Assembly: GCA_903930515.1 (NCBI GenBank) | Contig: CAIYYW010000118.1 | Span: 1-9,733, forward strand | Origin: an uncultured delta proteobacterium | GTDB lineage: Bacteria > RBG-13-61-14 > DRUE01 | Length of the DNA: 9,733 bases | Reading direction: 5' to 3' | Shown: piece after piece, positions 9,209 to 9,733 of the stretch | Layout: every line of letters begins with the position of its first letter | Numbering within the stretch: the stretch's first letter is position 1 | Position numbers and translations under genes: made by a program | The notes under the pieces: generated by a model | Databases searched by the model: none | What the model was told of the DNA's origin: nothing | What the model saw: only the letters and a program-made list of their open reading frames with translations

Positions 9209-9495
9209 TCATCCTCCTTCTTTTTTCTGGGAAATTGAAGATCCGTTTGGCCGGCCGCGGTTTCCGGCGCTTGAATTTTATCCCGCGGCGCGAAACTCGT
9301 CTGAATCCTCATTTTTCCCCTGGTTACCGCAAACCTCGGCTCAAAGACCGTGACTGAAATCAAGGCGCCGACCATTGCCATTATAGCAAAAAACAACAGG
9401 GAAAAAAACAGCAAAATCACCAGCGAAGTCCCCGGATGCGCCAGCCACCGCAAACCCTCTTCCAGAGCGGCCTGGACCTGGGGTGGAAGCTGGGG
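9205..9495 (-). CDS. Small membrane protein, 5' end truncated at junction
   Basis: The frame is open from the junction near 9497 to a TGA at 9207-9205 (96 residues visible). It begins [22 protein letters not shown], then has one long hydrophobic segment ([20 protein letters not shown], about residues 23-47), then a hydrophilic tail ending KKKEDE. One transmembrane helix with a short soluble C-terminal part is predicted. No start codon with a ribosome binding site is visible. A TTG at 9453 is in frame, but the sequence before it is equally protein-like, so the real start probably lay beyond the break. I do not recognise the family. The stop overlaps the AOR start (ATGA), so it belonged to this operon. 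Confidence 0.6.
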
Positions 9496-9496
9496 G

Positions 9497-9733
9497 CGAT
9501 TTCAGCGGACGCCTGTTAGTTCCAGTAATCGCGCGGCCACGACGGCCGTTATCCAGCAACGCATCAACAGATTCCTGCAACATGCGCTTTTCATTACGAA
9601 CAATAATGTCGGGGGCATTCAAGTCCAGCAAACGATTCAAGCGATTGTTTCTGTTGATAACCCGGCGATATAAATCATTCAAATCAGAGGTAGCAAAACG
9701 ACCGCCATCCAAAGGCACCAGCGGGCGCAACTC
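9497..9733 (-). CDS. rpoC: Internal fragment of RNA polymerase beta-prime subunit, probable chimera
   Basis: Read on the minus strand from 9733, the frame gives 79 residues starting [20 protein letters not shown] and ending [10 protein letters not shown]. Compared with E. coli RpoC as I recall it, only a handful of positions differ over this stretch (lid/rudder region, roughly residues 245-330). The expected continuation, a Leu-Ala-Asp-Met-type segment and then GKQGRFRQ, is absent. The sequence switches abruptly near 9497 to Pro/Gly-rich out-of-frame reading of another gene. Codons here end in T and A more often than in the AOR operon. A complete rpoC would be about 1,400 codons, so this is only a piece cut at both ends. 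I infer a chimeric assembly join with a gammaproteobacterial genome. A transferred pseudogene is less likely. Confidence 0.9.

Follow-up and report, generated by a model that had tools for sequence, protein, structure and literature searches.

Computational errors in metagenome-assembled genomes (MAGs) have two main sources, and misassembly is one of them, although it is rarer than mis-binning (PMC8201837). Whole-genome amplification is known to yield chimeric reads (PMC6777429), and in a mock community the chimeric sequences were always located at contig ends (PMC8172020).

The window analyzed here, 9,733 nucleotides in length, is the entire contig C118 (G000:C118:1-9733) of the draft genome G000, which comprises 3.65 Mb on 401 contigs with a completeness of 93.5% and a contamination of 2.4%. 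Genome G001, from the same genus, and genome G002, from the same order, serve for comparison. The features of the contig that bear on its right-hand end are collected in Table 1. As the window covers the whole contig, the foreign rpoC piece found there is terminal, and positions 9497 to 9733 form the physical contig end. This end is very probably an artefact, in which a piece of gammaproteobacterial rpoC became joined in vitro or in silico inside a membrane-protein gene.

Table 1. Coordinates of the joint and of the genes on both sides of it
Feature	Position	Strand	Evidence or remark
GH2-like gene	3493-5619	-	Pfam
DUF192 gene	5622-6149	-	Pfam
Alpha/beta hydrolase gene	6085-6924	-	Pfam
ThiS-like (ThiS/MoaD-like) gene	6921-7202	-	Pfam
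Aldehyde ferredoxin oxidoreductase gene AOR2, first complete gene past the joint	7208-9208	-	Pfam AFOR_N/AFOR_C
Membrane-protein gene, C-terminal half (97 codons plus stop)	9205-9498	-	Match to the G001 homologue
Joint	9495-9503	-	rpoC column counts and codon listing
Foreign tip, internal rpoC fragment (79 codons)	9497-9733	-	Runs open into the contig end

Origin of the terminal rpoC fragment

Read on the minus strand from 9733 to 9497, the tip encodes 79 RpoC residues in a stop-free frame. The best RpoC match in the PDB, 6j9e_D, aligns from its residue 248 with an E value of 2.5e-43, and the tip corresponds to residues ∼248 to 326 in the numbering of that structure. The Pfam domain PF04997 is matched at positions 9497 to 9730 with a score of 82 bits, compared to a cut-off of 39.7 bits. 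Among the matches listed, the closest protein is that of the Immundisolibacteraceae MAG NORP326, with 78 of the 79 residues identical, and many other gammaproteobacteria among these matches show protein identities of 92 to 97%. The highest DNA identity, 84%, is found with a genome from the class of NORP326, among 369 genomes drawn from this larger class. An exact donor with a DNA identity above 84% is found neither in these 369 genomes nor in the family that contains the genome with the 84% match. These data agree with the initial annotation, which had described a near-perfect, gammaproteobacterial-like RpoC sequence ending near 9497 and cut inside a conserved block; the break lies at RPLKS-LADM.

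Position of the joint and the truncated membrane-protein gene

Comparison with related rpoC loci delimits the joint from the side of the tip. At position 9495 the window contains a C, compared to a T in 80 of 80 related rpoC loci; from this position downward the agreement of the window with those loci is lost, and similarity to RpoC reaches down to 9496 at the furthest. When the DNA of the tip is aligned with gammaproteobacterial genomes, similarity stops after 236 or 237 of the 237 bases, and the match of the membrane-protein gene to G001 begins at 9498, so that the two homologies meet within ∼2 bases of 9497. In the frame of the membrane-protein gene, a TGA codon at 9504-9502 restricts an intact native gene to positions no further than 9503. 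Combined with the RpoC fit down to 9496, this leaves the two parent sequences with at most positions 9496 to 9503 in common, a limit of ∼8 bases that presumes a native membrane-protein gene that is open, as in G001.

On the other side of the joint, the membrane-protein fragment covers residues 103 to 203 of the 203 residues of its G001 homologue with 54% identity, in keeping with the earlier description of this DNA as the interior of an unrelated membrane-protein gene. The gene had also been said to have lost its start; the start is indeed missing, but the loss is larger and comprises about half of its length. In G001 an intact gene of 203 amino acids is located directly before the AOR gene and is itself preceded by a DUF2085 gene, and in G002 the N-terminal part of the membrane protein is recognizable before the AOR gene together with a DUF2085 gene. 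Both relatives therefore show a native continuation different from that of the window, one that is not rpoC. Neither the N-terminal half of the membrane-protein gene nor the DUF2085 gene has a credible match in G000, the weak matches being short or low scoring, which is expected if the true continuation of the contig was lost at the break.

In G001, the DUF2085 gene (locus L004, 623-1174) carries the in-frame stretch SAFAKATADRKVARTM, and the part of the gene containing it weakly matches several sites in G000. The stretch resembles a dispersed repeat of short length that has entered a coding sequence.

The proportion of G or C at third codon positions (GC3) is 0.53 in the tip, compared to 0.72 ± 0.064 in the 79-codon windows of the other genes, for which the minimum is 0.544. 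The membrane-protein fragment has an intermediate value of 0.61, so that codon use alone could not place the joint. Of the earlier statement that codon use changes at the same point, the change itself is upheld, since the shift is real relative to both the operon overall and the genome's own rpoC, yet it is not sharp at the joint.

Explanations for the joint

In the most probable account, the membrane-protein gene preceding AOR2 was fused internally, in vitro or in silico, with a stretch of rpoC from a gammaproteobacterium, presumably present in the same sample, and the contig then stopped 237 bases into the foreign piece. Two lineages meet in the contig: among the matches listed, the tip is gammaproteobacterial at 78 of 79 residues, compared to 66 of 79 shared with the genome's own RpoC, and AOR2 shows 77% identity with the copy in G001 and 65% with that in G002. 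The terminal position and shortness of the foreign piece, its donor from another class, and the native locus retained in relatives together point to a chimeric contig end. The probability that the tip instead comes from G000 itself, as its known rpoC or as a further rpoC gene in a rearranged location, is practically negligible. The own rpoC is located on contig C193 as an intact frame of 1,366 amino acids, and the one observation that favors this origin is a weak DNA match between the tip and C193, 71% over 178 bases. With just 66 of 79 residues in agreement and a base identity of 67%, the tip is refuted as a copy of this gene, and the matching codons of the own rpoC have a GC3 of 0.80, compared to 0.53 in the tip. 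A second gene is opposed by the absence of any further PF04997 or PF00623 domain from the bin: the PF00623 profile search of G000 returns C193 as its sole match and does not recover the remainder of the foreign rpoC.

A genuine capture, in which a gammaproteobacterial rpoC piece inserted into or recombined with the membrane-protein gene in this strain and truncated it, would likewise leave no long stretch common to both sides of the joint, as is expected from illegitimate recombination. It is nevertheless very improbable: the piece lies exactly at the contig end, within 237 bases, it is absent from G001 and G002, where the gene order is intact, and its insertion would disrupt a gene leading into a conserved operon. 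Among plasmids and phages, no sequence covers the join from both sides, and the exact junction is absent from the viral contigs searched. The same join, whose occurrence in other genomes had been named as evidence against a chimera, was looked for among plasmids, phages, viral contigs, G001, and G002 and was not found. The capture that the initial annotation had offered as an alternative is left with no positive support, whereas its principal proposal, a chimeric contig end, is sustained by four independent results: the terminal tip, the foreign donor with the own rpoC intact elsewhere, the native continuation in relatives, and the lack of the join in these collections. The artefact could also stem from misassembly in a de Bruijn graph, by way of a long k-mer common to both genomes. 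Assemblies usually employ a k of 21 or more, and the joint shares at most ∼8 bases, given an intact native gene as in G001, which makes this route highly unlikely even though misassembly is a main source of error in MAGs, rarer than mis-binning as it is (PMC8201837). With so short an overlap, the artefactual join more likely came from a read or library molecule that was itself chimeric, or from gap closing over a short overlap, than from a k-mer misjoin.

The AOR operon and the opposite contig end

The gene order DUF2085, membrane protein, AOR, ThiS-like, hydrolase, DUF192, and GH2 is kept in G001 and G002, without rpoC. The position of a ThiS-like gene beside the AOR gene suggests a link to the supply of the pterin cofactor. 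A second AOR gene with a 4Fe-4S ferredoxin-like subunit is located at 314-2685, and G000, G001, and G002 each contain several AOR paralogues. The possibility that C118 contains a further join was considered for this other AOR gene (AOR1, 841-2685). A same-genus homologue with 89% identity is found on another contig, G001:C794, and shows that AOR1 belongs to the genus, but AOR1 is not present on the examined 20 kb of the G001 contig C46, and its adjacency to the GH2-like gene in C118 is putative.

The opposite contig end, positions 1 to 182 with a conserved core at about 1 to 148, is a dispersed repeat with 46 matches in G000. The identity is 90 to 97% in many of these, and a contig end lies within ∼150 bases of many of the best ones. 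The conserved block extends leftward past C118, with at least ∼30 further bases in locus L130 matching other copies; from this continuation, a longer multicopy element probably broke the assembly at the left end of C118. An imperfect inverted pair is formed by positions 13-32 and 163-182. The region beside the repeat, 126-233, contains the short variable direct repeats GACAAGAGTGTC and AGGAGTATTCAAA. Single-strand folding is better than that of shuffled sequences (z = -3.5), and a comparison with Rfam gives no match.

Consequences for the use of the contig

If left untrimmed, the tip appears as a false gammaproteobacterial rpoC fragment in G000 that scores above the Pfam cut-off, and it could feed false claims of gene transfer or counts of marker-gene contamination. 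It also hides the true upstream genes of the AOR operon, and the earlier advice to disregard the sequence beyond 9497 when interpreting this operon is sound. The contig end is best treated as an ordinary artefact whose significance is limited to that of a caution, and positions 9496 to 9733 should be trimmed.

Comparison with described systems

The likeness of the tip to gammaproteobacterial RpoC, the β' subunit with its PF04997 domain, consists in the 78 of 79 residues that it has in common with NORP326. In contrast to the full protein, the tip comprises no more than an interior piece that breaks off within the conserved RPLKS-LADM block, and it does not constitute a gene at this place. C118 resembles the chimeric contig ends of metagenomes in the terminal position of the foreign piece, in the presence of two lineages, and in a native locus that is intact in relatives. 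It differs from the chimera of the mock community, which joined two very similar genomes (PMC8172020), in that its two sides are unrelated and have almost no common sequence at the joint.
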